From the IMG/VR virus record IMGVR_UViG_3300048997_000494, positions 1 through 39,423 of that record: 39,423 nt of DNA; one strand, written 5' to 3'. The notes beneath the pieces were generated by a model. The model saw only the letters and a list, made by a program, of their open reading frames with translations, did not search any database and was not told where the DNA came from. Positions 439 to 37,998 of this stretch are shown piece after piece. Source of the DNA: a virus. Position numbers and translations under genes: made by a program. Every line of letters begins with the position of its first letter. The stretch's first letter is position 1.

Positions 439-1506
439 ATGCGCGACCCTTCGGTGATACAACCTTTCCCTTCCCCGATCCACACCAGAGGCCACATCGC
501 ATGCCCGGCATGTGAAGCGGCCCGAGCCCTGATGATTGATCCTTCCCGGTTGGCTGCTCTCAATTTTCGAGAGGCGGCGAGAATCTGGTTCGACACTCAC
601 GTGCCCCACATCGGCGCGGGAACGAAGCGTCATTACACGAACTGCATCAATCGGCTCACAACTTTTTTCGGCGAGCTCATGCTAGGCGAGATCCACGTCG
701 GCCACTTCGAGCAGTATCAGAAATTGCGCAGCGCCGGCGAATGTGGATTCCATCGCGCGGGACCGTCGCTGGTGAATCACGAGCTCAATACGCTCTCGCA
801 AATTCTCACGCGCGCAAATTTGTGGGCGCCGATCGCGCCGCACTACAAGCCGCTGAGACTGCCGCGGCCGAGCGTAGGATGCGCTCTGGTTTCCGAAGAT
901 GAAGAGCGATTGTTCCGCGTGGCAGCTTCCAATCCCCGCTGGAAAGTTGCCTATTGTTGCGCGATCCTGACCGCGAACACAACGGCCGGCCCGAATGAGA
1001 TCCGGCATCTGCGCCGCATGGATATTGATCTGGATCCGCCGGTGATCCACATCACGGAAGGCGTAAAGAACGAATACCGACGGCGCGCGATCCCGCTGAA
1101 TTCTCCCGCGGCATGGGCAATGCGCGAGCTTATCAAACGAGCAAGGGACCTCGGCGCCGTCGATCCGGATCACTACATTCTTCCGCATCGAGCGGCAAAC
1201 GGAACCAACGGCTTTGATCCCAGGCGACCGATCTCGAGCTGGCGAGGATCGTGGGACAAATTGAGGAAGGCGGCCGGCTTACCGAATCTTCGCATGTATG
1301 ACTTACGGCATCACGCGATCACGCGACTACTCGAAGATGAAGACGTGAGTGAACGCACGGTGATCGAGCTCGCCGGCCACGTCTCCCGCGCGATGCTCGA
1401 GCGCTATTCGCACATTCGCATGCGGACGAAAAAGGAAGCGGTCGATGCCCTGGCTAAGAAGAGCGTACAAGGGACTCGCGCTGCGCTGATCCTGGTGAAG
1501 CGCTAA
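439..1506 (+). CDS. int: Tyrosine recombinase / phage integrase
   Basis: A 355-residue site-specific recombinase that would integrate or excise the element by strand exchange through a 3'-phosphotyrosine. The C-terminal catalytic domain (about 150-340) shows Arg189 in GPNEIRHLR, Lys210 in the beta-hairpin, Arg290 in YDLRHH, His314 in LAGHVS and the nucleophile Tyr323 in ERYSHIR. The first His of the usual HxxR box is Tyr287, a known variation. A SAM-like core-binding domain precedes it (about 40-140). The N terminus carries a CPAC pair (Cys22, Cys25), unusual for the family and possibly metal-binding. The start is supported by GGGAGA six nt upstream. It is one of few plus-strand genes and marks the end of the phage map. 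Its 3' end overlaps a small minus-strand ORF. Confidence 0.93.
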   Translation: MRDPSVIQPFPSPIHTRGHIACPACEAARALMIDPSRLAALNFREAARIWFDTHVPHIGAGTKRHYTNCINRLTTFFGELMLGEIHVGHFEQYQKLRSAGECGFHRAGPSLVNHELNTLSQILTRANLWAPIAPHYKPLRLPRPSVGCALVSEDEERLFRVAASNPRWKVAYCCAILTANTTAGPNEIRHLRRMDIDLDPPVIHITEGVKNEYRRRAIPLNSPAAWAMRELIKRARDLGAVDPDHYILPHRAANGTNGFDPRRPISSWRGSWDKLRKAAGLPNLRMYDLRHHAITRLLEDEDVSERTVIELAGHVSRAMLERYSHIRMRTKKEAVDALAKKSVQGTRAALILVKR

Positions 1507-1824: not shown

Positions 1825-2058
1825 TCAAACCTCTGCGGGAAACGGAATTTCCCGTAGCAACGAATCGAAATAGGCGGCGCATTCGGCGCCGTAGCTGGGC
1901 TCTTCACACCCTTGCTTCTTCTCTTCTAGAAACTGCACGACTTCCTGCCAACCTTGTCGGAATTTCTCTGGCTCTTCAGTATAGCGGCGCATCCACTCAT
2001 TGAACGCCGCTGCCATCCGCGATCTCACGAGCTCCGGTGTCGTCATTGTTTTTTCCAT
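1825..2058 (-). CDS. Hypothetical small protein
   Basis: A 77-residue protein starting MEKTMTTPELVRSRM. GGAGG seven nt upstream fixes the start at 2058. It is predicted helical and acidic, with a tryptophan-rich middle (EWMRRYTEEPEKFRQGWQEV) and two cysteines near residues 51-60. No family is recognised. Its first 62 nt overlap the 3' end of the serine recombinase gene in another frame, so the two are probably co-transcribed and translationally linked. The EEPEKF...GWQEV pattern suggests a conserved small helical protein rather than a random frame. Confidence 0.65.
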   Translation of the reverse strand: MEKTMTTPELVRSRMAAAFNEWMRRYTEEPEKFRQGWQEVVQFLEEKKQGCEEPSYGAECAAYFDSLLREIPFPAEV

Positions 2059-2638
2059 GTTTTATCCTCCATAGTGTTGAACGTGATGGACCGCGCTCCG
2101 CTATCTTCGGACCAGGCCTTTTCGCGCCGGCCTTCTTCATCCCGTTGCGGATCCGCTCGGCAATCAGGTTGCGTTCAAATTCCGCAATCGCCGCGAGAAT
2201 GGTGAAGAGCAGTCGGCCCATCGGTGATGACGTATCCATCGACTCCGTCAGAGAGACGAACTCGAGGCGCTTGGCTTCAAACAGATCGAGCACCCGCAAC
2301 ATATGTTTCGTCGATCGGAAGAATCGATCGAACTTCCAGACGACGATGCCATCGAACTTTTTAGGGATACCCGCGCGAGGATCTATCGCATCTACCGCGG
2401 CCATCAGTTCATCGAAAGCCGGCCGCGATTCCGATGCGCCGCTCCAACCCTGATCGATGTATTCGTGCGAGATCGTCCAGCCCCGCATGCGGCACATCTG
2501 GCGAAGAGGTTGGAGTTGGGCCTCGGGATCCTGGCCTTTGAACTCATGGCCAGTGGAGGCGTCATGCGACCCGGGCGCCTTCCCGCAGGTTCGGCAGATG
2601 TCCTTCGAGACGCGCGCGTAAAGTGCGACCTGGTTCAT
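1997..2638 (-). CDS. Serine recombinase (resolvase/invertase) with a Cys/His insertion
   Basis: A 213-residue recombinase when started at the ATG of MNQVALYARVS (GGGA just upstream); a longer ORF reaches 2761 but adds non-family sequence. Ser11 in YARVS is the expected nucleophile. The catalytic domain continues with VVWKFDRFFRS, the SPMGRLLFTILAAIAEFERN segment typical of resolvases, and a helix E (NLIAERIRNGMKKAG). A short C-terminal helix-turn-helix (SRSTLWRIKHG) follows. Odd: about 20 residues with Cys15, Cys18, His25 and His31 are inserted between the Ser11 loop and the usual DPEAQLQPLR helix, which could bind zinc. The enzyme could invert or resolve DNA, for example a fibre locus or multimers; no matching inverted crossover sites were seen. 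Confidence 0.88.
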   Translation of the reverse strand: MNQVALYARVSKDICRTCGKAPGSHDASTGHEFKGQDPEAQLQPLRQMCRMRGWTISHEYIDQGWSGASESRPAFDELMAAVDAIDPRAGIPKKFDGIVVWKFDRFFRSTKHMLRVLDLFEAKRLEFVSLTESMDTSSPMGRLLFTILAAIAEFERNLIAERIRNGMKKAGAKRPGPKIAERGPSRSTLWRIKHGKNNDDTGAREIADGSGVQ

Positions 2639-2685
2639 TTCCCTGTTTACTAGGTGGTAATAATTCGGCTCAAAAAGGCCGTTTT

Positions 2686-2871
2686 TCAATTCAGGTGAAT
2701 TGAAACACCCCTGAGCCGCCCGTAGGTGCTGAAAAACACCCGCCAGATCAGCGGAAGCCATCCGCTTGCAGCTGCTGTGAAGATGATCCCGTTGACCGAG
2801 TAGTGATTCCGAGGATCGTTTCCAAGAAAGCGGAACCGCGGTAGATACACAACACCTTTTTCCATACTCAC
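2686..2871 (-). CDS. Hypothetical protein, GTGA-coupled
   Basis: A 61-residue ORF whose GTG start (2869-2871) overlaps the TGA of the upstream gene as GTGA, with AAGG a few nt upstream; an ATG at 2863-2865 is an alternative. The middle is hydrophobic (IIFTAAASGWLPLIWRVFF), possibly one membrane segment. No family is recognised. The coupling and spacing support it being real. It lies between a small KOW-like protein gene and the serine recombinase. Confidence 0.5.
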   Translation of the reverse strand: MSMEKGVVYLPRFRFLGNDPRNHYSVNGIIFTAAASGWLPLIWRVFFSTYGRLRGVSIHLN

Positions 2872-6075: not shown

Positions 6076-7188
6076 ATGAGCACTCGCAACCAATCTCTCG
6101 ACGTGCTGCGCGGGTTCGCCATCCTGCTCGTGATGGGACGGCACTTCGACTACTGTCTGACCTGGCGCATGATCGGCTGGTCTGGCGTCGATCTGTTCTT
6201 CGTGCTCAGTGGTTATCTAATTTCCGGCCTGCTCTTTCGCGACTTCAGCGAGTTCGGAAGGATTCGCGTCACGCGCTTCCTGATCCGCCGTGGCTTTAAG
6301 ATATGGCCACCGCTCTACGTCTTTCTTCTCGTGGTTTCTTTGCTGCTGCGATGGGCCGGAGGATCCCCGAAAGATGTTTGGCTGAGCGCGGCATTCGTCC
6401 GGAATTACTTCATGGCGCCCGACGGTTCTTTCCTTTTTGGGCATACCTGGTCGCTGTGCGTGGAGGAGCACTTTTATTTTCTGCTGCCCTTTGTGCTCTT
6501 ACTGCTCACGCGAAGACGCGAAGGATTGCAGGCCATTCCGTACATCTCAGGTGCGCTGATTGTTGCGTGCCTGGCCTTGCGAATCTTGTTGCATCCGGTT
6601 CAGACCTACGCGACCCACTTCCGGTTGGACGGCCTGTTCGCAGGAGTGTGCTTGCGCTATGTGCATGACTTCCGCGCCGAATGGTTTCGCAAAGTCTCGG
6701 GACATTGGGCGATTCCCGCCGCCACAGTACTGCTCGCGCCCGTCTTCTTATTTGAGGCAGATTCTAGAGCGATGCAGACGTGGGGACTCACTGCGATGCT
6801 CGCGGGATTCGCTTTGCTCGTGGCCTGGTCCGTCGATCGCAAACCGTATGCCTGGTTGCGGCCGCTCGCCGCGATCGGAGTATTTTCCTATTCCATCTAT
6901 CTCTGGCAGCAACCGATCTCGCTCGTGATCCGCAATGCTTGGGGTGATTCAGCTTTTACTTTTTCCTTCTATGTTGTCGTCGCGATCGCGTTCGGAGTCC
7001 TGATGGCGAAGCTCATAGAATTTCCCGCGCTGCGCTTGCGCGACACTCTCATCGGAGAATCTACAAATGAACCGCACGAAGCTAATCAATTACGGGTTAT
7101 TAATCCTACTGGTCGCGTTGGCGGCGCTGTTTGGGCTAGGCCGGAAGACCGCGCGGATTCTCGACATGCCAGCCGAGCAGCATCATAG
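6076..7188 (+). CDS. Membrane acyltransferase, family 3 (OafA-like)
   Basis: A 370-residue polytopic protein with the acyltransferase-3 signatures: SLDVLRGFAILLVMGRHFD with conserved His23, WSGVDLFFVLSGYLISG (35-51) and TWSLCVEEHFYF (124-135). About ten hydrophobic segments follow. Family members O-acetylate or acylate cell-surface polysaccharides from the cytoplasmic membrane. On the opposite strand inside a phage late region it looks like a lysogenic-conversion gene that would alter the host O-antigen or exopolysaccharide and block superinfection (inference). An in-frame TAA lies directly before the ATG, fixing the start. The last ~45 residues follow the final membrane helix, look disordered, and overlap a second ORF. 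Confidence 0.9.
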   Translation: MSTRNQSLDVLRGFAILLVMGRHFDYCLTWRMIGWSGVDLFFVLSGYLISGLLFRDFSEFGRIRVTRFLIRRGFKIWPPLYVFLLVVSLLLRWAGGSPKDVWLSAAFVRNYFMAPDGSFLFGHTWSLCVEEHFYFLLPFVLLLLTRRREGLQAIPYISGALIVACLALRILLHPVQTYATHFRLDGLFAGVCLRYVHDFRAEWFRKVSGHWAIPAATVLLAPVFLFEADSRAMQTWGLTAMLAGFALLVAWSVDRKPYAWLRPLAAIGVFSYSIYLWQQPISLVIRNAWGDSAFTFSFYVVVAIAFGVLMAKLIEFPALRLRDTLIGESTNEPHEANQLRVINPTGRVGGAVWARPEDRADSRHASRAAS

Positions 7189-23552: not shown

Positions 23553-25730
23553 TTACGACTTCAGGCAATCGACCGCAGTGAGAAAACCAGCCGGATAGCG
23601 GTTGCCCCAATCGGTGAGCACGAAAGTCGTCAATTCGATCAATCCCTGTTTCTTGAGTCTGTAAGGATCGACGACGAGCTCGAATCCGGATCCCCACAAG
23701 CCATTGATCAGAGAGCCGAAGACACCGAGGATCAGCGCATGCGCGATACCCACGCTGGTGCCAATCGTCAGATTCTTGGGGACCTGGTTCGACACGCGCG
23801 ACATCAAGCCATCGATCTCGTTCTGGTCAGTCCAGATGGGATCGCCAGTGACGTTCACGACAGTACCGCCAGCCGGCGCGTACAGCAGTCGTGGCGTGCG
23901 CTTGAAGAGACCTTTGATCCCCGGAGTGGTCAGCCAGGCAAAATCACCGATCTGATCCGCGTTCACGTCCTCGAGCGACTCTTCCATCAGAGTGACGTCG
24001 TCCCACGTGGGTTTCGCGCCGTTTCCAGCGTCACCTTCCAGCGTGTAGGATCCGACGCCGGCAGTGTGCAGAATCCCTTTGGGATCGTTGGCCGAGCCTG
24101 TACCACTGATGCCGGCAAGATCGATCGCCAAAGCGACATCGCGCGCCAGGTCAGACCGCACTAGGTTGTCGACGTCGACGACGGATTGCGCCATCAGCTG
24201 GCGAGAATAGGACGCAGAGGACTGATAAGTCTTGGGCGTGATAGTCACCTGGCTCAAGGTCAAATTGCTGTCGGCAACATCAGCGCCGGGATTCTCTGCC
24301 ACCCAGCTCCCCGAGGCCTTACCGGTCTGCTTGGGAAATCCGACATTTCCCTGCAGCCCGCTCAGCGTCTGGGCCCCGAGCTCCTTCAGCCTCATCTTGT
24401 TGTAAAGAAATTCAATGAAGGCGCCGGGCTCGGTGAATACGGTTTCCGCGCCTTTGGTCGCAGTGGCGGCCGTGAGAGTCGTAGCCGCGCGCTTTGCCAA
24501 GCCAAGAGCCTCGGCCCCGCGAGCTGCCTTCTGAGCATCAACTTTTAACCTAAACGGAACAAACATTCCGCCGTGGCGTTTGCCTTCCCAGGTCTTCGCG
24601 ATCGTGTCCGAAACTTCCGTCTCAAAGCACGTATCGTTCCGACCGCTGTCGATGTTGCGGAGCTGCGTCATGATCCCGCGGCAGATGTTGTATTCCTTCT
24701 GCTCTTTGTCGGTGAGCTCCAGCATCTCGCCACTGCGCTCAGCAGCAGGCGTTGCAACCGGGTTAGCACCGCGAGCTGCAACATCAGCCAAAATCACACG
24801 CGCGGCCTGATCCAGAGTGAAATTATCGCCGCCCTTTTCTAAAATCTCGGCACCCCGTTTGTTGTCGATGCCGTGCGAGTTGCAAAGAAGGAGAAACTCC
24901 CTCATATCTTTCGGGTTCATGGTCCTTACCTCTATCTGCGGTGGCGGCGCCACTGCTGGGTTAGCTGCTGATCGAACTGAAATCGGGTATTCGCGCTCGC
25001 TAGCGGATCGGCCGGGCCCGACCGAATAATCGGCCGGCACCGCAACGGAGGAGCCTTCCATCGGCGCCCATCGCGTAACGCGGTAGGTACGGTTGTCTTC
25101 GTCAGTCTTGCTCTCGAGGATCATGTCGATCACGCGATAGCCAATGCTGGTGAAAGGCCGGATCCCGTCTTCAACATCGCGCTTGATGTCCTGCGCGCGC
25201 TGAGATCTCGAAAAGCGCACATTGCCTTTTGTCTTTTTTCCGTCCAGGCGAAAATTCTCAATAATGGCAACCTGGTCGCCGGTGTCGTGGTCCACGAGAT
25301 AGCTCAAACCATTGGCCGCGCGGCTCAGATCGACCGCAGCCGAAGAGTGATCAAGGATCTCGTCACCAAACCAGCGCGGAACCGGCGTCTCCGAGGAAAA
25401 TGACATCTCGAAAACATCGCCGTCGCGCTCATCAATCTCATCAGCTTCATTGGGATCACCGGGATCCGGCTCGGCTTCAGCCACGGCACGCCAGGCGACG
25501 AGCTCAGGTGAAGGCGTCTCAATCGCGACATTCAATCGTTTGGCATCAGCCACGAGACGACGCCAGGTGCGGTTTGCATCCGGAAGCTTAATATTGAATT
25601 TCGCGAGCGCTTCGCGTAGAGCAGCCTCAGTAATCGGAGTCTTCGACTTACGCACTGCCTTCAGCTCGACCGGCATAAACCGAGTCAGCATGGGCAACGC
25701 CGCTGGCGTCTCTAAATTCTTCTTCGGCAT
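23553..25730 (-). CDS. Prohead protease fused to HK97-type major capsid protein
   Basis: 725 residues from the ATG of MPKKNLETPAALP; a TTG at 25749-25751 would add 7. Region about 105-220 is a U35/HK97-type prohead serine protease: FEMSFSSETPVPRWFGDEIL, His148 in LVDHD and Ser195 in FTSIGYRV, with FSRSQRAQDIKRDVEDG. A linker (about 225-330) with AAERSGEML can serve as scaffold. The HK97 capsid fold follows (ETVFTEPGAFIEFLYNKM, GFPKQTGKASGSWVAENPG, LSQVTITPKTYQSSASYSRQL, SGTGSANDPKGIL). Protease, scaffold and capsid in one chain is a known variant. Element copy E lies 39 nt upstream of the ATG. Confidence 0.92.
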   Translation of the reverse strand: MPKKNLETPAALPMLTRFMPVELKAVRKSKTPITEAALREALAKFNIKLPDANRTWRRLVADAKRLNVAIETPSPELVAWRAVAEAEPDPGDPNEADEIDERDGDVFEMSFSSETPVPRWFGDEILDHSSAAVDLSRAANGLSYLVDHDTGDQVAIIENFRLDGKKTKGNVRFSRSQRAQDIKRDVEDGIRPFTSIGYRVIDMILESKTDEDNRTYRVTRWAPMEGSSVAVPADYSVGPGRSASEREYPISVRSAANPAVAPPPQIEVRTMNPKDMREFLLLCNSHGIDNKRGAEILEKGGDNFTLDQAARVILADVAARGANPVATPAAERSGEMLELTDKEQKEYNICRGIMTQLRNIDSGRNDTCFETEVSDTIAKTWEGKRHGGMFVPFRLKVDAQKAARGAEALGLAKRAATTLTAATATKGAETVFTEPGAFIEFLYNKMRLKELGAQTLSGLQGNVGFPKQTGKASGSWVAENPGADVADSNLTLSQVTITPKTYQSSASYSRQLMAQSVVDVDNLVRSDLARDVALAIDLAGISGTGSANDPKGILHTAGVGSYTLEGDAGNGAKPTWDDVTLMEESLEDVNADQIGDFAWLTTPGIKGLFKRTPRLLYAPAGGTVVNVTGDPIWTDQNEIDGLMSRVSNQVPKNLTIGTSVGIAHALILGVFGSLINGLWGSGFELVVDPYRLKKQGLIELTTFVLTDWGNRYPAGFLTAVDCLKS

Positions 25731-25769
25731 AACGAATGTACTCAGCTTCAAGTGCTACGAAAAAAGCGA

Positions 25770-25791: not shown

Positions 25792-27333
25792 TCAAACGAT
25801 CTCGAGCTTGCGGCCCTTACCAGGCTGATCTTCCTCGTCCTGTCCCGGATTGGTGTCATCGCCCGCAGCCGGATTGTTCTCCGTCGACGGCCGCGCCGGC
25901 AGTTTCGTGTTGAGCTCGATCCCGAATTGCGCCGCGGTCTTGTCTTCCTCGGCCAGCTGCTCGAATACATCTTCGTAATTACCCCCGCGATCGGAAATCA
26001 CACCGTCGCGCGTCTGCAGCTGTGCCGCGATGCCCAAAATCGCCGCCTGCGTTTCTTTATAGGGATCCACCCACTGCCAGCCGCGCGGGATCCACTTCCC
26101 AACGAGATAGCGCTCCGGATTCATCGAATCGAGTTTCAACGCACCCGTAAGAAGCGACATCGCAAGCCAATCTTTGAAAATCGGCCCCATAAACGACTCC
26201 GCAACGTGCTTCTGAATCACTTTCCAACGATCACGCTCGATCAGCAGACCCGATCGCAGCGAGGAATAGTTCACGCCAGTGAGATCATTCGCCAGAGCGT
26301 TATAGCTCGCACCAAGGCCTGACGAAATCCATCGCAAATTCGTCTTAATGAAGGCCTCGAAGGCATTCGAAGGATGATCGGGCTTGAATTCTTTCAGCGT
26401 GTAACCTGGCGGCAGCGCCTCGAAAGTGCCAGGCTCAGCTTCCATCCGCAGAGGATGGTCCGGATCCGGCTGCTCGTAATTTCCAGAATCCGCGCACTCG
26501 AGCACGGCCATTTTGGCGGCGCCGATCCGCGCGGCGACGAGCTCAGCCTCGACATAGCCATCCAAGATCTTCAGGGCCATCATTACCGCGTGAAACCAGG
26601 TAATCCCACGCGTCTGATTCATGCGATAGGGATCGAAAAGATGGAGCATCTGATCGGCATCGATCCGATCGCGCAACAGCGAGCCACCAAAATCACTGGG
26701 ATGGCCGGGATTCACCCAATAGGCAAGCGGCTTTCCCCACTTGTTAACCTCAACTCCGAGCCGGATCTCAGCCTCTTTATTGCCTGGCGGCCGCGAGAAC
26801 AGATGATCGACCTGGTCAGCGTCGATCGTTTGCAGGGCAAAACCCCATTTGTTATCAAATCCCTTGACCCGACGCACAAAGGCCTCGCCATCCATCGCCT
26901 CAGTACGCAAGCTCAAATCCTGCAAAGCCCGGAAAGAGAGCTTCCCGTCGACGGTGCAATTACCCTGCTGGCACCATTCGTCCCAAGCCGTCTCAATTTT
27001 CTTATTGGTAGCGCGATCGATCTCGCCTTTTGAATCTCTCACCAGCGATTGATAGCGGATCCCGGCCGGCCCGATCACATTCGCGCTCAGCATATTCAGA
27101 TAGTGCCGGCCGATCGGATTGTTCCGGGCAACCTCGCGAGCTCGCGCGCGCAGTAACCTAAGATTCCCTCGGCATTCCTGATCCGGAGACAAGATCGGCG
27201 CAATCCAATCCAGCGTAAGACGGGATCCCGTGGCGCCCGCAAAGACTGTGCTGCGCGCGTGTGGCGCCTTACGCTCGAGCCCGACCAGGCCGAGTGCGCG
27301 GTCAAATACGCGGCTGACAACGTTCTTCTTCAT
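25792..27333 (-). CDS. Portal protein, lambda gpB family
   Basis: 513 residues. RLTLDWIAPILSPDQEC, LLRARAREVARNNPIGRHYL, QRRSLVRD-like region GPAGIRYQSLVRDS, the RVKGFDNKWGFALQTIDADQ strand and the WVNPGHPSDFGGS, MLHLFDPYRMNQTRGITWFH, VEAELVAARIGAAKMAVLE segments are typical of lambda-type portals. Twelve copies form the ring through which DNA passes. The ATG overlaps the preceding TGA (ATGA, 27330-27333). It ends with a Pro/Asp-rich, then basic tail (GKGRKLEIV). Confidence 0.93.
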   Translation of the reverse strand: MKKNVVSRVFDRALGLVGLERKAPHARSTVFAGATGSRLTLDWIAPILSPDQECRGNLRLLRARAREVARNNPIGRHYLNMLSANVIGPAGIRYQSLVRDSKGEIDRATNKKIETAWDEWCQQGNCTVDGKLSFRALQDLSLRTEAMDGEAFVRRVKGFDNKWGFALQTIDADQVDHLFSRPPGNKEAEIRLGVEVNKWGKPLAYWVNPGHPSDFGGSLLRDRIDADQMLHLFDPYRMNQTRGITWFHAVMMALKILDGYVEAELVAARIGAAKMAVLECADSGNYEQPDPDHPLRMEAEPGTFEALPPGYTLKEFKPDHPSNAFEAFIKTNLRWISSGLGASYNALANDLTGVNYSSLRSGLLIERDRWKVIQKHVAESFMGPIFKDWLAMSLLTGALKLDSMNPERYLVGKWIPRGWQWVDPYKETQAAILGIAAQLQTRDGVISDRGGNYEDVFEQLAEEDKTAAQFGIELNTKLPARPSTENNPAAGDDTNPGQDEEDQPGKGRKLEIV

Positions 27334-28291: not shown

Positions 28292-30211
28292 CTAATCCCG
28301 CCAGCGATTCACCCAACTGCTACGATCCCGGCCTGGCGCCGGCGTCTGGGCTTCTTTCGACTTCATTTCATTCGGATCCAGCTTCTCAGCTGCCTTTTCA
28401 GCCAGCTCACCTAACCGTCTCACAGTCATATTCCCGAGAGAATAAAGAGCTGCCAGCGCATAGACCTCACAATCCAGCGCTTCGTTGCGGGCCCGCGTCT
28501 TGATGTATTCGCGTACAACTCCACGGCCGCGGCGATATCGAGTGACTCGCTTCTCGCTGGTCAACTGCTCGAGATATTCTTCTTCGCACCAATCTGGAAG
28601 ATGAATGTAGCCCGCGCCTGGCGCCGGAATCTGCAGGCGTGAAAAGATACGGTCCTTTGCGGTGTCCGCTCCGATCGTATACAACCTGGCCCGATAGGAA
28701 TTGTTTTGCGTGAACTTGGCCAGGATCTCTTTTCCGCCTTCACTCGAGCCTTTACAGGCAAACACCCGCCGCGCAGCTCGAGCTTTCACGAATTTGTAGA
28801 CCTCATCGGTGTGATGACCGCCGGAATCAATGAAAGTGGCCAGGATCGGCATCATGCGGCCGCTCTCGTGCTTAAATTCTGTGCGCAGAAACGTGTCCAA
28901 CTGATCCCAGACCGTTTGCTGGCCAGGATCCCCGAAGAATTCATCAACCGCAATCAGCCAGGACTCTTCCCCGGCGCCCCATCCCTTGACCACAACGACG
29001 AGGCGATCGTCCTGTACGTCGGCAGCAGAGGTCAGGAGACCAACACCATTCGGGACTTCCGGCCTCTGTTCAGCATCAGCCGCGCCATATTTCTCGCAGC
29101 GCCGGCGAAGATCATGCGACTCGAGCGAAAATCCTTGTTCTTCCCACACTTCACCAAGTCTCAGATTGATGAAGGCCTTAAGCTTCTCGGGATTCTTCTG
29201 AGCTTTGACCCACTCGTCGGCCAGGTCCCCCCAATTGTCGCGCCAGGGAGAATAGAGCGCATTCAAAGCGAAGCCCACCACGGCCCGGCCGGGAAAAGTG
29301 GCTACCCAGTGGCCTGCATCGAGCATTTGCTGCTTATAGCGCTCGGGAATGATCTTCTGGCACTGTTCACACTGATATCCAACACTCGAGGCAATCACCT
29401 GGCCGCCGGCATCGAGCTTATAGACCAGGCGAAAGGCTTTGGTCTCGCGATCGCGCCACAGCAAGGCCTGCATTCGAGCGCAAAAGGGACAGGGAACATG
29501 GAAAAACCGCTGATCGCTCTCCTCAAAGCGTTTCTCGATCCGGCTCAGCCCTTTCGGCTTCGCCGGCGTGGATCCCTCATAGATCTTGAAATCGGTGAAT
29601 TGATCGGTACGCCGCTTAGCAATCTCACAAGGATCGCCTTCCCCGTCGACATCCAGCGGAAAACCCTCGGTTTCATCGAGCAAAACAATGGGCACGGGAT
29701 CCGATCGCAAGCCAGTCCCTGAATTCGCGCCGGTCAGTTTCAGAAATCCGCCGAGGAATTCTTTCAGCTGCAGAGTGTTTCCCGCGCGGCGCGACGTCGC
29801 CGGCCTGATCTTCTCTCTCACCGCCGGCGTGCTCTCGATCATAGGAGTAATGCGCTTCTTCCCGAAATCTTTTGCATTATCGATCGTGGGTTGCACCAGC
29901 ATGATCGGCCGCGGATCGATGTCGATGAAGTAACCGATGATATTTATCAAGACGGCGTCGCTATAGCCAATCTGGGTCGACTTTTTTACAACGACTTCAT
30001 GCACGTTGGGATCGCACACGACATCCATCATTTCAATCTGGAATTTTTCAGGCCGAAACGGTCCAGGCCTGGCCGTCGTGCCTTTCGGTAGTATCCGATT
30101 CCGGCGAGCCCACTCTGAGACAAGGATATCGAGAGGCGGCGCGAAGCCGGCATAAACACGCTGAATTACAGCTTTGAATTCCGCGGCTGCACTCTCGTGA
30201 GTCGCTAGCAT
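28292..30211 (-). CDS. Large terminase subunit, GpA family
   Basis: 639 residues: packaging ATPase and nuclease, which cuts concatemers and drives DNA into proheads. N-terminal ATPase: Walker-A-like KKSTQIGYSDAVL (about 76-88; the unusual GpA version without GxxxxGKT), Walker B IVLLDETEGFP (175-184). Two CxxC pairs (CPFC at 241-244 and CEQC about 40 residues later) form a zinc site typical of GpA. C-terminal nuclease region with FIDSGGHHTDEVYKF. Start ATG overlaps the small subunit by 7 nt. GpA terminases usually cut at a cos site, which suggests one near the small-subunit gene. Confidence 0.93.
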   Translation of the reverse strand: MLATHESAAAEFKAVIQRVYAGFAPPLDILVSEWARRNRILPKGTTARPGPFRPEKFQIEMMDVVCDPNVHEVVVKKSTQIGYSDAVLINIIGYFIDIDPRPIMLVQPTIDNAKDFGKKRITPMIESTPAVREKIRPATSRRAGNTLQLKEFLGGFLKLTGANSGTGLRSDPVPIVLLDETEGFPLDVDGEGDPCEIAKRRTDQFTDFKIYEGSTPAKPKGLSRIEKRFEESDQRFFHVPCPFCARMQALLWRDRETKAFRLVYKLDAGGQVIASSVGYQCEQCQKIIPERYKQQMLDAGHWVATFPGRAVVGFALNALYSPWRDNWGDLADEWVKAQKNPEKLKAFINLRLGEVWEEQGFSLESHDLRRRCEKYGAADAEQRPEVPNGVGLLTSAADVQDDRLVVVVKGWGAGEESWLIAVDEFFGDPGQQTVWDQLDTFLRTEFKHESGRMMPILATFIDSGGHHTDEVYKFVKARAARRVFACKGSSEGGKEILAKFTQNNSYRARLYTIGADTAKDRIFSRLQIPAPGAGYIHLPDWCEEEYLEQLTSEKRVTRYRRGRGVVREYIKTRARNEALDCEVYALAALYSLGNMTVRRLGELAEKAAEKLDPNEMKSKEAQTPAPGRDRSSWVNRWRD

Positions 30212-32813: not shown

Positions 32814-33203
32814 TTAGGCAGGTACCTTCTCTTCGCAGCGGCAAAAGTTGCCCTCGCCGAGATACTGACCGCAATCGGTCCGACTCTTGTGCTCATGCCG
32901 GCAGCTCGGACACGTGAGATCGAGATCGCGCGCCATAACACGACCGGTCGAACGCAAAGGTCCGTCGGCTGTATTTACGACTGGAACGTCATTGTGAATC
33001 GCAATCACCGCTTCCAGTTCGCGAAGCCAGGCCGTAAAATCCATACTATTTCGCAACCATTTGCCGTCGGCAAGTTGAGCAAAGTCGGCCTCGTCTGCCA
33101 GGAGATTCGTCAAAAGCCGCGCGATGAGCATAGCAGAGCGCGGATCAGGAGATTTCTCGGCAACTTGCTCGCGAAACTTTCGAATCGTGTCCGCTGCTTT
33201 CAT
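32814..33203 (-). CDS. Hypothetical protein with C-terminal zinc ribbon
   Basis: 129 residues from MKAADTIRKFREQVAEKSP; ATG overlaps the upstream TGA (ATGA at 33200-33203). Helical body (SAMLIARLLTNLLADEADF, FTAWLRELEAVIAIHN) and a C-terminal CPSCRHEHKSRTDC...FCRCEE zinc-binding site. Located downstream of SSB, so may act with replication; function unknown. Confidence 0.7.
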   Translation of the reverse strand: MKAADTIRKFREQVAEKSPDPRSAMLIARLLTNLLADEADFAQLADGKWLRNSMDFTAWLRELEAVIAIHNDVPVVNTADGPLRSTGRVMARDLDLTCPSCRHEHKSRTDCGQYLGEGNFCRCEEKVPA

Positions 33204-33475
33204 GCGGCCTCCGTGAAGAGCTCGCCTTGTGGCGAAGGATGGCGCTTTTTCCATAGGTCGTACTGCAATTGATGCTCGGGACAAAGATGCTTCCCCGGCC
33301 CTACTTCCTTCGTATGCGCCGCACAAATCGGAGCATCACAGGTCCCCGACCTTTTATTCGGCATTTTCCAGTCACAGAGAGCAACGGCCTGTCGACCGCA
33401 TCCGCAAAACTTAACCCCGCGAAGCCCACAAATCACCGCCGTACTACCCCCCGGCAATTTCACGGTCTCGCACAT
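33200..33475 (-). CDS. Small cysteine-rich protein (putative zinc-binding)
   Basis: 91 residues. A CGCG pair (FCGCGRQ) with CDWK, CDAPICAAH and CPEHQ give six or more Cys and two His in zinc-site spacing. GGGGAG seven nt before the ATG. Ends with PSPQGELFTEAA. Typical of small phage zinc proteins; probably structural or nucleic-acid-binding. The 64 nt to the SSB stop contain no ORF. Confidence 0.7.
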   Translation of the reverse strand: MCETVKLPGGSTAVICGLRGVKFCGCGRQAVALCDWKMPNKRSGTCDAPICAAHTKEVGPGKHLCPEHQLQYDLWKKRHPSPQGELFTEAA

Positions 33476-33538: not shown

Positions 33539-33979
33539 TTAGAACGGAATATCTTCATCCGTGATTGGTCCCGCGGCTGCGCCCACTAATTCACGCTCAG
33601 GCTCAGCCGGCGCCGAGCCGCGCGAATGTCCACCGGAATCCGCGCCACCCAACAGAATCAGATCTGTAGCGATCACTTCAGTCATGTACTTTTTCTGGCC
33701 AGTGGTCTTGTCATCCCACGAGCGAGTTTGCAAACGGCCCTCGATATAGACTTTGCCGCCTTTCTTGAGATACTCGCCCGCGATTTCAGCAAGGCGCTGC
33801 CACAGCACTACGTTGTGCCACTCCGCTCGATCCTGCCATTCACCGGCTTTATCTTTGAAACGTTCGTTGGTGGCAATGGTCAACTTAGCCACAGGTGTGC
33901 CCTGTGGCGTGTACTTAACCTCCGGATCTTTTCCGAGATTTCCAATCAGCACAACCCGATTTAAACTTTTTCCTGCCAT
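33539..33979 (-). CDS. ssb: Single-stranded DNA-binding protein
   Basis: 146 residues from MAGKSLNRVVLIGNLGKDPE; AAGGAG eight nt upstream fixes the start at 33979 (the open frame extends to 34228 but adds non-SSB sequence). OB fold: VKYTPQGTPVAKLTIATNER, WHNVVLWQRLAEIAGEYLKK, GKVYIEGRLQTRSW. A Gly/Ser/Pro linker ends in the DEDIPF tip that recruits replication proteins. It protects ssDNA during rolling-circle replication if Rep is active. Only 40 nt separates it from Rep, with a small GCGGC/GCCGC hairpin (33998-34012) just before its ribosome site. Confidence 0.95.
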   Translation of the reverse strand: MAGKSLNRVVLIGNLGKDPEVKYTPQGTPVAKLTIATNERFKDKAGEWQDRAEWHNVVLWQRLAEIAGEYLKKGGKVYIEGRLQTRSWDDKTTGQKKYMTEVIATDLILLGGADSGGHSRGSAPAEPERELVGAAAGPITDEDIPF

Positions 33980-34019
33980 TTTGGTCTTGCTCCTTATGCG
34001 GCTAGTTGCCGCAAACTTG

Positions 34020-35171
34020 TTAAGCCCACTCGCTAGAACTGTCTGGCGCAGCGCCCCACGACGCCCACAAGTTCTGACGAGCAATTCGTTCGTGATGCGC
34101 CGCAAGTTCGTTGCGCAGTTGCGCACGATCTGGGCGAACGGACTCACGACGCGCATACTTGTGAAGGAAAAATAGCCCGGTGAAGCTGACCGCTTCCGCC
34201 TCATCAGACACAACATGCGAGCGCGCACGTGGAACCACGCTGCGAAACACGCCTTTCAAATCGAGAGAGAGCTGCTCGGTCCAACGATTGACTCGCCCCA
34301 AAGCGACAATCTCACTCGAGTCACAATCCGGACAGTGCGCCTGCACCGAATTCGGATGAGCTTCATCAGCTACAGACAGGCCGTAAAAGCTGCCATAGGT
34401 CCGCACGAACCGTTTCTTGTGAGTCGAGAGCAGCAATTCCTCAAGCGCATCAACGTTTCCGATCAGGTCCGCAACCTTCGTCACGTACTTAATCAACTCC
34501 TGCACCGTGCCCTCATCCGCCGCACGAATAAAACTAGTGCGCCCGCGATGACACGTCGCTTCACTCCAAGCCACGCGCAACTCCTCGAAAGGGAAATACT
34601 CACCTTCCATCAGCACATTCAGGTGGGGATGCCAGGTATGTTGTTTCTTGTTGTAAGTGACCTCGAGCGCCACGATGCAGCCCCTAACTTTCCGTTTCCA
34701 CCGCACCGAGCGACGCAAGCGATTCCACGCTTCCCAAAGCGACTTTATTCCCGCAGCCACATCCGTAGAATTGCGCTCAGCCAACACCGCATAGCGCAGC
34801 GAGGTTTTCTCCCTACCCAATAAAAACTTGCTCATACGCGAGCCCAGAACCTTCGCACGCCTATGACTACAATGCGGGCAGACCCGGAGAGAGCACGAAT
34901 TCTCCGCTTCCACCCAATCGTGATTATTTCGGCAGCGCCAGTGCCGAAACTCCCGGTGACACCCTTCACACAATGCAGCCTTTCGTCGGATCACGTGGTT
35001 TTTTGCGCGTGCCAGCGTTTTCACTAGCGCCGCCTGCACTTCGTATCGATCCAGAAAGCGGAATTCCTTCCCGATGAAGGCTTGCTTCGGATCAGAATCC
35101 CAACCTTCCGAATCAACTACTTGCCTGCGTTTGAGTCCTTTTCGATCTGTCGAGTTATTCACTGGTATCAA
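34020..35171 (-). CDS. rep: Rolling-circle replication initiator, HUH endonuclease (Rep_1-like)
   Basis: 383 residues from a TTG (35169-35171), or from GTG at 35162; the start is uncertain. HPHLN (His181, His183) after a hydrophobic strand (GCIVALEVTYN) is the HUH metal-binding box. Tyr229 with Lys232 in LIKYVTKV is the single-tyrosine YxxK motif III. An upstream Cys cluster (CEGC 68-71, C80, C93, CPHC 98-101) and a later CPDC (280-283) look zinc-binding, as in bacterial plasmid Rep_1/pC194-pUB110 proteins. Such proteins nick the plus strand at the double-strand origin and stay bound through tyrosine. A plasmid-type Rep in a terminase-bearing tailed phage is not common. The TTG itself sits in CTTGATA, the core of pC194-type nick sites. 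Confidence 0.88.
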   Translation of the reverse strand: MIPVNNSTDRKGLKRRQVVDSEGWDSDPKQAFIGKEFRFLDRYEVQAALVKTLARAKNHVIRRKAALCEGCHREFRHWRCRNNHDWVEAENSCSLRVCPHCSHRRAKVLGSRMSKFLLGREKTSLRYAVLAERNSTDVAAGIKSLWEAWNRLRRSVRWKRKVRGCIVALEVTYNKKQHTWHPHLNVLMEGEYFPFEELRVAWSEATCHRGRTSFIRAADEGTVQELIKYVTKVADLIGNVDALEELLLSTHKKRFVRTYGSFYGLSVADEAHPNSVQAHCPDCDSSEIVALGRVNRWTEQLSLDLKGVFRSVVPRARSHVVSDEAEAVSFTGLFFLHKYARRESVRPDRAQLRNELAAHHERIARQNLWASWGAAPDSSSEWA

Positions 35172-35380
35172 GTAAAGACTTCAAAACCCTTCCCGCCTGC
35201 AGCATCGATTTGCTATCGGCTTTTCCCAGGTTTTTTTCTCCAGCTCTGGCACGTTCGGACACACTTAGAACGTCGGCTTCACGGAGCACACACACTCCGC
35301 CACCGGCGCTTTAGAATCAGTGGATCGCGCTTAACGCGCGATCCACAATCGGACCAGGTTTTTTGCTTCCAGCTCTGGCA
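35166..35380. other. Candidate double-strand origin region next to rep
   Basis: CTTGATA (minus strand, 35166-35172) overlaps the rep start. Upstream in the gap and gene end are two imperfect direct repeats (35226-35251 and 35354-35380; both CCAGGTTTTTT...CCAGCTCTGGCA), an 11-bp perfect hairpin (GTGGATCGCGC/GCGCGATCCAC at 35320-35330 and 35336-35346) and a weak CGGAG/CTCCG hairpin near 35283-35299. Hairpins, repeats and a nick-like motif beside rep are the usual parts of a rolling-circle origin. No gene is seen in 35172-35316. Confidence 0.5.
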
Positions 35381-35667
35381 GACTCTTCTTGCCCGTCCTC
35401 GTGCTCGGTCGATTGCTCGGGAACAGGATTGAGTGCCGAGAGGCGTGCCGTCGCTGTCGCGAATCCAAAAACCTGGTAGAAATCGGATCCGCTATGTTGG
35501 TTGCGTCCCTCGACACTCAATTCCGTTCCCGTGTACATCCGAAAGCGTCGCCACAGTTCGACCTGGTCCATACCTGCGACGTGGTAGTCGGCCAGCTGCG
35601 GCGTGATCAGATGGATCTCCGTCATCAACTGGCTAACCGTGCGCCGAAGATTTCGAATCGTGATCAT
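35317..35667 (-). CDS. Hypothetical protein, ATGA-coupled
   Basis: 116 residues from MITIRNLRRTVSQLMTEIHL; start chosen because ATG overlaps the upstream TGA (ATGA at 35664-35667). Continues YHVAGMDQVELWRRFRMYTG and FYQVFGFATATARLSAL, then an acidic/basic disordered tail. Its last codons encode the 11-bp hairpin and one of the direct repeats. No family recognised. Confidence 0.65.
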   Translation of the reverse strand: MITIRNLRRTVSQLMTEIHLITPQLADYHVAGMDQVELWRRFRMYTGTELSVEGRNQHSGSDFYQVFGFATATARLSALNPVPEQSTEHEDGQEESARAGSKKPGPIVDRALSAIH

Positions 35668-36065
35668 GCGGAGCTGCCCGACTTCTCCCCCGCGTTGCGG
35701 GAGTTCAGACCTTGCAATTGAGGATTTCTCCGCAACTGGCCGCACCAACATTTGTGATAGGTGTGAACGCCCTGACGGACACATGAATGATTTTGTTGGC
35801 CGAATTGATTAGCGCGAGGATGAGCGAGCTCCCCACGATTTTCCCAAATAAATCCGCACATGCCTTCGAGTGGCTGACTAGGGCAGGAGGACGCATAATC
35901 GGGGCCGAGGCGCTTCTTGAACTCCAAAATTTCATCGACAACGTGAAACTGGTTTTCTGGAAAATCGCCACATGCCGCCATATCGAGAAAGTCATTGAGG
36001 CGCTCGTAATCTTCCCGGCTCATGGTCAAGACCACCTGGCCGTTTTCTTCGCGGTAGTAGCTCAT
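35664..36065 (-). CDS. Hypothetical protein
   Basis: 133 residues beginning MSYYREENGQVVLTMSRED, an N-terminal region like small phage proteins with a DYERLNDFLDMAACGDF helix. The later part has CVRQGVHTYHKCWCGQLRR, possibly metal-binding. ATG overlaps the ATPase TGA (ATGA). No family recognised. Confidence 0.65.
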   Translation of the reverse strand: MSYYREENGQVVLTMSREDYERLNDFLDMAACGDFPENQFHVVDEILEFKKRLGPDYASSCPSQPLEGMCGFIWENRGELAHPRANQFGQQNHSCVRQGVHTYHKCWCGQLRRNPQLQGLNSRNAGEKSGSSA

Positions 36066-37624
36066 GCGATCGCACTCACTTCCTTCACATTCACCTTCAT
36101 GCCAGGCACCGCCTGATAACTTCCCTGCCCAACGATGCGGATGAATCCGTATTCAGCGAGCTTCGCCATCTCGAGATTCTTCGGTTGAGGCCGTCCCAGT
36201 TGAGAGGCCCATCCGCGCGCGCGAAATTCATCGTTAATGTGCTCCGTCTTTTTCGGAGAATCAAAGAAGCCTTCAGAAAGTAGAAGCGCGAGCCGACCGA
36301 TTAGATCCTCGTCGTTTGTTTCGAGAACATAGCGGCGCTTTGTGACGTCGATCACTGGCTTTCTCACGTCGATCGACATCGCGACCTCGTCATTGTTGCC
36401 GCCGACAAACTCATTCGCCGGCGGCGTAACGCGGGGAGCGTCAGTGAGAACAGCGCCGCGGGCGTTCCGTTCAAGCTTCTCGATTCGAGCCTTGAGTTCC
36501 TCGATAGTTTGCTGCGCTTCTTCGTACGCCGACTTATAGTCCACGTTCTCATCCTCCTGGTGCCGGCTTTTCACCGGCTGATATTTTGCGATCGCGTTTT
36601 TTACCATCAGATCGCCAGCTTGCGCCGGCAGAGCCATTGCGATCTTGAATCCAACGTCTCGAGGCATCCAGCTCGGCAAGACATACACTCGCGTGAGCAC
36701 ATCCTCGTAGCACACAAAGAATTGACCGCGGCGAAGCTGCATTACATCTTCCGGCTGTGGTTTCAGCTTCTTTGGGACTGCCATCTGTGAGAGCGTGTGC
36801 TCGACTTCGTTCACTTCACGCTGCACGCCGAGGATCCAGACGCCGACTTGCTTCAAGATTCGCTTGTCGACGCCGGTGATGTCCTGCGAGTCGAGCCACA
36901 TGAAATTGTGCGCGGCCGCGCCTTTGCGGATGAGCGATTCGCCAGCCATCTTTACCGGCGTGTTGCGAGATTGCGGTAAAAACTCCCAGGCCTCGGGAAT
37001 AACGGTGATGACCTCGCGCCGGCGATAAACTTCCTCCATGGCAGAGGCGATCGCGAGCGACTGCATTTCAGTCGAGTATTCGCTCAAGTCCATCACATTC
37101 AGGCCAGGCTCGAGAGTGAGCGTCGATCCGTGCGTAGCCATGTCGAGCTTTAGTCGCCTCAGCTCTGGCATCAGCAGCTTGAAATATTCCGAGAGCTGCA
37201 GATACATACCAGCGGCATACCCAGACGCCGGATGCCCTCGACGGCCTTTGCCGGCTAATGCGACGTCGACATTCTTCGCCACTTCTTCTAGCGATTTGGC
37301 GCCCTGGCACACGCGAATGATCCACTCGCGCTGATACTTCATGCGCTCACGCATCATGGCTTCAAGAATCGATTCGACGAATTGCCAGTCAGCGCGATCG
37401 CGGAAGTAAGGCGGAATGCGACGCGAGTCCACGAATGCACTCTCAGCTCGCTTGGTGAGAAACGCGAGGGCCGGCCGGGGAGGCTCGCCAGAACGCGAGA
37501 GCAGACCCTCGAGCGTCGTCGTCTTCCCGCTGGCTTGCGTTTGCCCACAGACGACGGTATGCGCGAACGGAATTCGGACCTCTTTGCCGGTCGAGACTTC
37601 GTAGCCGAGCAGGATGTCGCTCAT
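36062..37624 (-). CDS. HerA/VirD4-like P-loop ATPase
   Basis: 520 residues. Walker A GQTQASGKTTTLEG (27-40, Lys34) follows IPFAHTVVC, as in HerA/FtsK/VirD4-type pumping ATPases. Walker B is odd: VITVIPEAWEF (205-214), with Pro210 in place of the usual Asp before Glu211. A WLDSQDITGVDKRIL segment (243-256) fits the family's sensor region, and an acidic coiled coil lies near 355-390. A winged-helix-like C terminus is possible (LSEGFFDSPKKTEHINDEF...MAKLAEYGFIRIV). May move DNA or remodel replication complexes. It is ATGA-coupled on both sides. Confidence 0.8.
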   Translation of the reverse strand: MSDILLGYEVSTGKEVRIPFAHTVVCGQTQASGKTTTLEGLLSRSGEPPRPALAFLTKRAESAFVDSRRIPPYFRDRADWQFVESILEAMMRERMKYQREWIIRVCQGAKSLEEVAKNVDVALAGKGRRGHPASGYAAGMYLQLSEYFKLLMPELRRLKLDMATHGSTLTLEPGLNVMDLSEYSTEMQSLAIASAMEEVYRRREVITVIPEAWEFLPQSRNTPVKMAGESLIRKGAAAHNFMWLDSQDITGVDKRILKQVGVWILGVQREVNEVEHTLSQMAVPKKLKPQPEDVMQLRRGQFFVCYEDVLTRVYVLPSWMPRDVGFKIAMALPAQAGDLMVKNAIAKYQPVKSRHQEDENVDYKSAYEEAQQTIEELKARIEKLERNARGAVLTDAPRVTPPANEFVGGNNDEVAMSIDVRKPVIDVTKRRYVLETNDEDLIGRLALLLSEGFFDSPKKTEHINDEFRARGWASQLGRPQPKNLEMAKLAEYGFIRIVGQGSYQAVPGMKVNVKEVSAIA

Positions 37625-37998
37625 GCGGCCATCCTCCAGTGAATGATGTGCCCCTTAAACGGCAGCCTTCCGGCCCAAAAGTCGAGCATCTCCTCGAAGT
37701 CTGAGAATCCATCTCGAAGAGCGAGCGCCTCACGTTCCGACTCGCCGAGTTCAACGCCGTCAATAGCGACGCATGGATCGCAATTGCACTCGTGACCACA
37801 AGCGTCGATCTCGATCACTTCGACCTTCACGCACTCGGCGCGCATGAGCAGCTTTGCGCCTTTGTGGCGAAGCCCGGTATACAGATGCAGCGTGCTACCA
37901 GGCTTATCTGGATTTGCGCGGATCGCGCGGATCGTGTGTGTCTTCTCTCCCGAGAGGACCTTCGGAACGAACCGCGATTGAAAGTTATAGAGCCCCAT
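37621..37998 (-). CDS. ASCH-like protein
   Basis: 125 residues. MGLYNFQSRFVPKVLSGEKT, then HTIRAIRANPDKPG, LHLYTGLRHKGAKLL and C-terminal FSDFEEMLDFWAGRLPFKGH fit the short ASCH fold (YqfB-like), which has a conserved SGxKxxTIR start. ASCH proteins are RNA- or base-binding; the biochemical role is not known here. A CGHECNCDPC cluster in the middle is an unusual addition. ATGA-coupled to the ATPase. Confidence 0.65.
   Translation of the reverse strand: MGLYNFQSRFVPKVLSGEKTHTIRAIRANPDKPGSTLHLYTGLRHKGAKLLMRAECVKVEVIEIDACGHECNCDPCVAIDGVELGESEREALALRDGFSDFEEMLDFWAGRLPFKGHIIHWRMAA

Follow-up and report, generated by a model that had tools for sequence, protein, structure and literature searches.

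A plasmid-type rolling-circle initiator and its probable origin in a cassette exchanged among tailed phages

The tailed phage described here carries a rolling-circle initiator of the Rep_1 type, and at least ten further phage contigs, whose packaging genes differ, carry one too; most probably this protein (Rep) starts replication of the phage genome, and a conserved block at the start of its gene is the origin. The DNA analysed, called the window below, is the whole 39,423 bases of IMG/VR virus record IMGVR_UViG_3300048997_000494. Computation supplies homology to Rep_1, conservation of catalytic residues and of the origin block, mobility of the cassette in which these lie, and swaps within it of both the initiator and the ssDNA-binding gene. 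We put at about four in five the probability that Rep is the phage's own initiator, acting in the manner of pC194 and pUB110, with nicking, SSB coating, release through Glu225 and carriage on a mobile cassette all included.

The steps that we infer, among them nicking by Rep, the exact position of the nick and the action of Glu225, would run as follows. Rep would introduce a nick at CTTG^ATA (35169/35168) in its own coding strand, within an origin of ~34 bp that overlaps the start of rep, with Tyr229 keeping Rep attached to the 5' end; from the free 3' end, host polymerase would extend the leading strand on the circular phage genome; the neighbouring SSB (in relatives, an OB-fold protein) would coat the displaced strand; once the nick site is regenerated, Glu225 would hydrolyse it and so release a unit-length circle; and conversion of this circle to double-stranded form would precede packaging. 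The origin travels with rep and the ssDNA-binding gene as a cassette between unrelated tailed phages.

The tailed-phage context is sound. On the minus strand the window encodes a GpA-type large terminase (28292..30211; PF05876 3e-69, PF20454 1e-91), as a preliminary description of this DNA had it, a lambda-type portal protein (25792..27333; PF05136 1e-95) and an HK97-type major capsid protein with an N-terminal extension (23553..25751; PF05065 5e-26); on the plus strand lies a tyrosine integrase (439..1506; PF00589 3e-14). The minus-strand ORF at 35171..34020 is intact over 383 codons, and stops interrupt the plus-strand reading of 34020-35171. The preliminary description began the gene with the TTG at 35171; as that position is an in-frame TAG in 3 of 11 relatives and TTC in one, the start is moved to the invariant GTG at 35162, and the 5' half of the origin block is therefore non-coding. 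So defined, rep (34020..35162, minus strand) encodes 380 aa; the residue numbers used here (E170, H181/H183/N185, E225, Y229, K232) are those of the 383-aa reading.

Assignment of rep to the rolling-circle initiators draws on its Pfam match, its register with pC194 and residues invariant in homologues. The profile comparison recommended earlier places it in Rep_1 (PF01446) at 63.9 bits, E 2e-17, above the gathering cut-off of 33.2. The PHROGs library gave no match at E 0.01, and neither Rep nor a Rep profile drew anything meaningful from the PDB by sequence. Structure prediction, the other check suggested at the outset, was run with 10 sequences and gave a poor AlphaFold model (pLDDT 47) with no usable fold match: the best Foldseek hits, at E 9e-3, were to unrelated folds, and the model was set aside.

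Finer assignment comes from pC194 RepA, whose sequence was taken from its plasmid record, numbered and set in ungapped register with the window Rep (LEITYNKKRDDYNPHFHVLI / LEVTYNKKQHTWHPHLNVLM). Window Y229 falls on pC194 Y214; E225, four residues before the tyrosine (ELIKY229), on E210; and E170 (in LEVTYN) on the metal-binding Glu E142. All three pC194 residues are reported essential, and E210 is the one proposed to terminate replication after one round (PMC5703833). The metal site departs from this pattern: pC194 H155-F-H157 aligns with window H183-L-N185, that is, H-U-N and not the canonical HUH, and Rep is therefore filed as a Rep_1 variant, not a plain member. The earlier reading of HPHLN with Tyr229 and Lys232 as the Rep_1 layout thus stands for the family, the tyrosine and the lysine, and fails for HPHLN as an ordinary HUH motif.

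The variant site is uniform. HPHLN, Y229 and K232 are invariant in seven of seven homologues, HPHLN and ExxKYxxK are kept in all 11 phage copies, and, as to loss of the metal or tyrosine residues, the tyrosine is retained and Asn185 stands in for the second metal His in every one of the 11. This replacement could signify a degenerate or domesticated Rep that has lost nuclease activity and serves, for example, as a regulator. We consider that very improbable: across phage Reps at 42-71% identity there is no variation in the tyrosine, the Glu before it, the Lys or the other His, and HUQ Reps coordinate Mn via Gln at the position of N185 (PMC9973303), which makes an active H-U-N site plausible by analogy. 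In addition, the first His of HPHLN (H181) sits two residues ahead of the canonical HUH pair and is a ready substitute ligand, since in the closest plasmid and inovirus Reps the string is HPHLH or HPHFH; pUB110 Rep reads NQHMH at the HUH position.

Among known systems, the plasmid Reps of pC194 and pUB110 share with the window the Rep_1 profile, the Tyr with Glu at Y-4, the Glu of LE[IV]TYN, an N-terminal Cys cluster and, on the rep strand, an origin that has CTTGATA between comparable flanks. They differ from it in a canonical HUH ending in His where the window has HPHLN, and in an origin that lies upstream of rep rather than across its start; the window Rep, moreover, resides in ~40-kb tailed phages and is only 23-30% identical to plasmid Reps. 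Rep_1-type Reps of inoviruses (e.g. MT135285) are likewise HUH-Tyr initiators (26-29% identity), with CTTGATA upstream of rep; these, however, belong to small filamentous phage genomes (4.5-8 kb) and have the canonical HPHFH. P2 gpA is the HUH-type rolling-circle initiator of a tailed temperate phage and has two tyrosines. The window Rep has a single Tyr with Glu, and PF05840 (P2/phiX174 gpA) is absent from its Pfam matches up to E 10, which bears out the separation from gpA drawn at the start.

The probable double-strand origin (TCTTTACTTGATACCAGTGAATAACTCGACAGAT; 35145..35178, minus strand) is proposed on conservation and on its likeness to those of pUB110 and pC194. CTTGATA, the conserved nick of Rep_1 replicons (PMC10378824), lies at 35172-35166 on the minus strand, which is the rep strand, so that the predicted origin overlaps the rep start codon; the nick is predicted at CTTG^ATA between 35169 and 35168, and the predicted cleavage target of Rep is TTTACTTGATACC. 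The origins of pC194 (TTCTTTCTTATCTTGATAATAAGG) and pUB110 (TTCTTTCTTATCTTGATACATATAGAAATAACG), taken from their own records, resemble the window block on the rep strand and have the pyrimidine-rich upstream flank in common with it. The DNA that relatives conserve across the rep start reads TCTTTACT[T/A]GATACCAGTG[A/C]ATAAnTCGACAGAT, with exceptions in L034 (small changes) and L040 (CTTGATA to GTTCATA).

Conservation at this site extends to the DNA itself. Just 5 of 73 invariant amino-acid columns keep a single codon across 11 sequences, and three of these are rep codons 1, 5 and 6, inside the origin block. An 18-mer from the block has nine matches in IMG/VR viral contigs, all nine at rep starts, and three of the reps so located had escaped the initial protein scan; the 18-mer is unique within the window, and the block is single-copy per genome (10 records). 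Six matches of the origin motif in genome_contigs had no Rep by tblastn and were taken as chance. The heptamer alone occurs four times in the window against 2.8 expected, which is not significant; the origin argument therefore rests on conservation and position. A hairpin or cruciform at the predicted nick is no better than in shuffled sequence in the window (z 0.13 and -0.69); in relatives it is weak in L003 (z -1.79) and missing from L006. GC skew, which tracks the orientation of the genes, was not used to place an origin.

A conserved block that straddles a start codon might instead be a promoter, an operator or a translation-initiation element. The distribution of variation lends this something: among 11 copies the heptamer is CTTGATA in seven, CTAGATA in three and GTTCATA in one (L040), so that the nick core is less conserved than ATACCAGTG, downstream of it, which is invariant. 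Nevertheless, the exact Rep_1 nick heptamer in seven copies, the pyrimidine-rich flank, the single copy and the extension of the block into coding sequence fit such an element poorly, and we regard it as unlikely to be the whole explanation. The two roles may both hold, since in pUB110 the Rep complex at the origin region also silences rep (PMC5703833).

Downstream of rep the window encodes a canonical SSB (33539..33979, minus strand; 146 aa, ending DEDIPF; PF00436 E 1e-39), again as first described. Its standing as the defining companion of Rep did not survive comparison: PF00436 is found in one of nine records, and SSB was dropped as a universal member of the cassette. All relatives with sequence at this place have a ~117-aa protein behind rep, and in the window that gene gives way to SSB, the intergenic sequence before it being shared. 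Pfam offers no convincing match for the ~117-aa family. The protein is modelled (pLDDT 79) with an OB-like b-b-b-a-b-b topology; Foldseek matches are weak (best E 5e-3) and VIA Z is about 6-7, within the background range, with ssDNA-binding OB proteins (Teb1, LEF-3, PrgE and PRD1 SSB P12) among the weak structural matches, LEF-3 and P12 among those by VIA. As the scores lie in the background range, they serve only to support the argument from position; from the two together the protein is a predicted OB-fold ssDNA-binding protein.

In each of the 13 module copies examined, rep is separated from the ssDNA-binding gene by a stretch with a hairpin, GCGGC-N5-GCCGC, followed by the ribosome-binding site of the downstream gene (in the window GCGGC-AACTA-GCCGC, 33998..34012, minus strand). 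The loop is variable, and the element is tandemly duplicated in G002, G003 and G005. It may act in translation control or as a single-strand origin.

Strong indirect evidence for the function of the initiator slot comes from G012 (L065:3434-4600). Here the cassette retains the upstream ORF, the hairpin and the OB gene of the Rep_1 cassettes; in place of Rep_1 it has a Rep_trans protein (PF02486), at 30.3 bits barely above the cut-off of 29.6. Rep_trans proteins (pT181, CTXphi) are rolling-circle initiators, like the window Rep, with a fold and family unrelated to it (PMC13107129). That an unrelated protein of the same function takes the place of Rep in G012 indicates that this position in the cassette belongs to a rolling-circle initiator. 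Together with the nick-like origin, the swap leaves well supported, on stronger evidence than was first offered, what was first proposed, a Rep_1-type initiator in a tailed phage with a GpA terminase, and hence rolling-circle replication.

The cassette (origin, rep and ssDNA-binding gene) is exchanged among phages of four terminase lineages: GpA (the window, G002, G003 and G008), PF03354 (G004 and G009), Terminase_6 (G005) and a phrog_2-type, P22-like enzyme (seven relatives: G001, G006, G007 and G010-G013). The window and G001 share 71% Rep identity, though their terminases differ, whereas between the window and G002 the Reps are 57% and the terminases 81% identical; kinship of Rep thus does not track kinship of packaging, and the cassette moves. 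Separately from the cassette, a serine resolvase/invertase (1997-2761, minus strand) has 81-84% homologues in G002, G004 and G008, across terminase lineages.

A DnaB_C helicase was sought in nine records and seen in none, and no other replication initiator fit for the lytic cycle was recognised. As an alternative, Rep might be a plasmid-maintenance system used in lysogeny, as in a phage-plasmid, rather than the lytic initiator. The Pfam relatives of Rep are plasmid Reps, and four relatives assemble as circular contigs: G002, G004, G005 and G006 have a 127-base end repeat, in G006 deduced from a 36-base overlap (40,000 of 40,091 bases read). The window has no terminal repeats, and replicating or terminally redundant phage DNA would also be expected to give circular contigs. 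The integrase family is found in the window and in five of eight other records searched; the scan of window proteins recognised no partition gene, many ORFs being unannotated; and an alternative initiator for the lytic cycle is the element that this explanation lacks. Plasmid-like maintenance, which the preliminary description had entertained, accordingly found no evidence in its favour, and we judge it improbable.

The form of the product is less settled. In place of unit-length circles, Rep may yield long concatemers, joined head to tail, through sigma replication that does not terminate at unit length; terminase would then cut them. Headful packaging normally requires concatemers, and the seven relatives with P22-like terminases would need them; Erf-like annealing proteins and exonucleases are present among the pooled proteins of four relatives. 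Such recombination can, however, build concatemers without an initiator, and the proteins detected could supply them in those relatives; P2, for its part, can package monomer circles; and Glu225 at Y-4, the pC194 termination residue, is invariant in all 11 copies. By analogy with pC194, Glu225 favours unit-length termination, and concatemer formation by Rep is a possibility that we rate below it.

The relatives came from a protein scan of viral contigs (six Reps at 48-71% identity) and an alignment-based scan that added L040; a protein search of genome_contigs found no Rep relatives. Against 50,697 deposited phage records, tblastn with the window Rep matched three inoviruses only, and two other Rep_1 queries matched mainly inoviruses and other small ssDNA phages, together with streptococcal satellite phages, one 182-kb Listeria phage record and, partially, Staphylococcus records. 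At tblastn sensitivity, none of the three queries turned up, among these records, a ~40-kb tailed phage with a close homologue that is intact, and the limited, open-access literature searched held no description of Rep_1 in tailed phages. Among tailed phages, rolling-circle replication is familiar chiefly from P2-like gpA systems.

Taken jointly, the observations incline us, with some reserve, to see an undescribed mobile rolling-circle cassette of tailed phages: its origin overlaps the initiator start; its initiator is an H-U-N Rep_1 or a Rep_trans; its ssDNA-binding slot holds a new OB-fold family or a bacterial-type SSB; a conserved hairpin joins the two; and it has been exchanged across at least four terminase lineages, replacing theta replication in all. 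If this is right, a pC194-type initiator with its own origin, spread across four packaging lineages, would mean that plasmid-type replicons power ordinary tailed phages, and how unit-length rolling-circle products feed different terminases becomes a testable question. The ssDNA-binding-gene swap gives a function prediction for the uncharacterised ~117-aa family, and in the phage Reps nature has set up a test of a metal site with Asn in place of His.

Other genes accompany the cassette to differing degrees, all on the minus strand. A small ORF upstream of rep (35317..35784) is conserved with it by tblastn in seven of nine relatives and in G012; a 91-aa Cys-rich protein (33200..33475), with no Pfam match, is 44-56% identical in seven of nine relatives; and a weakly conserved Cys-containing ORF of uncertain start lies at 32814..33326. 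The HerA-like ATPase of the preliminary description is a 520-aa P-loop ATPase (36062..37624), weakly assigned (HerA/AAA_10-like; AAA_10 E 5e-4, below cut-off) and better called accessory than a cassette companion: its homologues occur only in G009 (66%) and G010 (68%), G002 and G005 have unrelated DUF87/HerA-type ATPases upstream of rep, and a HerA-type ATPase was rejected as a universal member. A possible ASCH-domain protein (37621-37998, minus strand) falls just under the Pfam cut-off. On the opposite strand, a window protein, probably at 6076-7188 (plus strand), matches O-acetyltransferase/O-antigen acetylase PHROGs and is a possible lysogenic-conversion gene.
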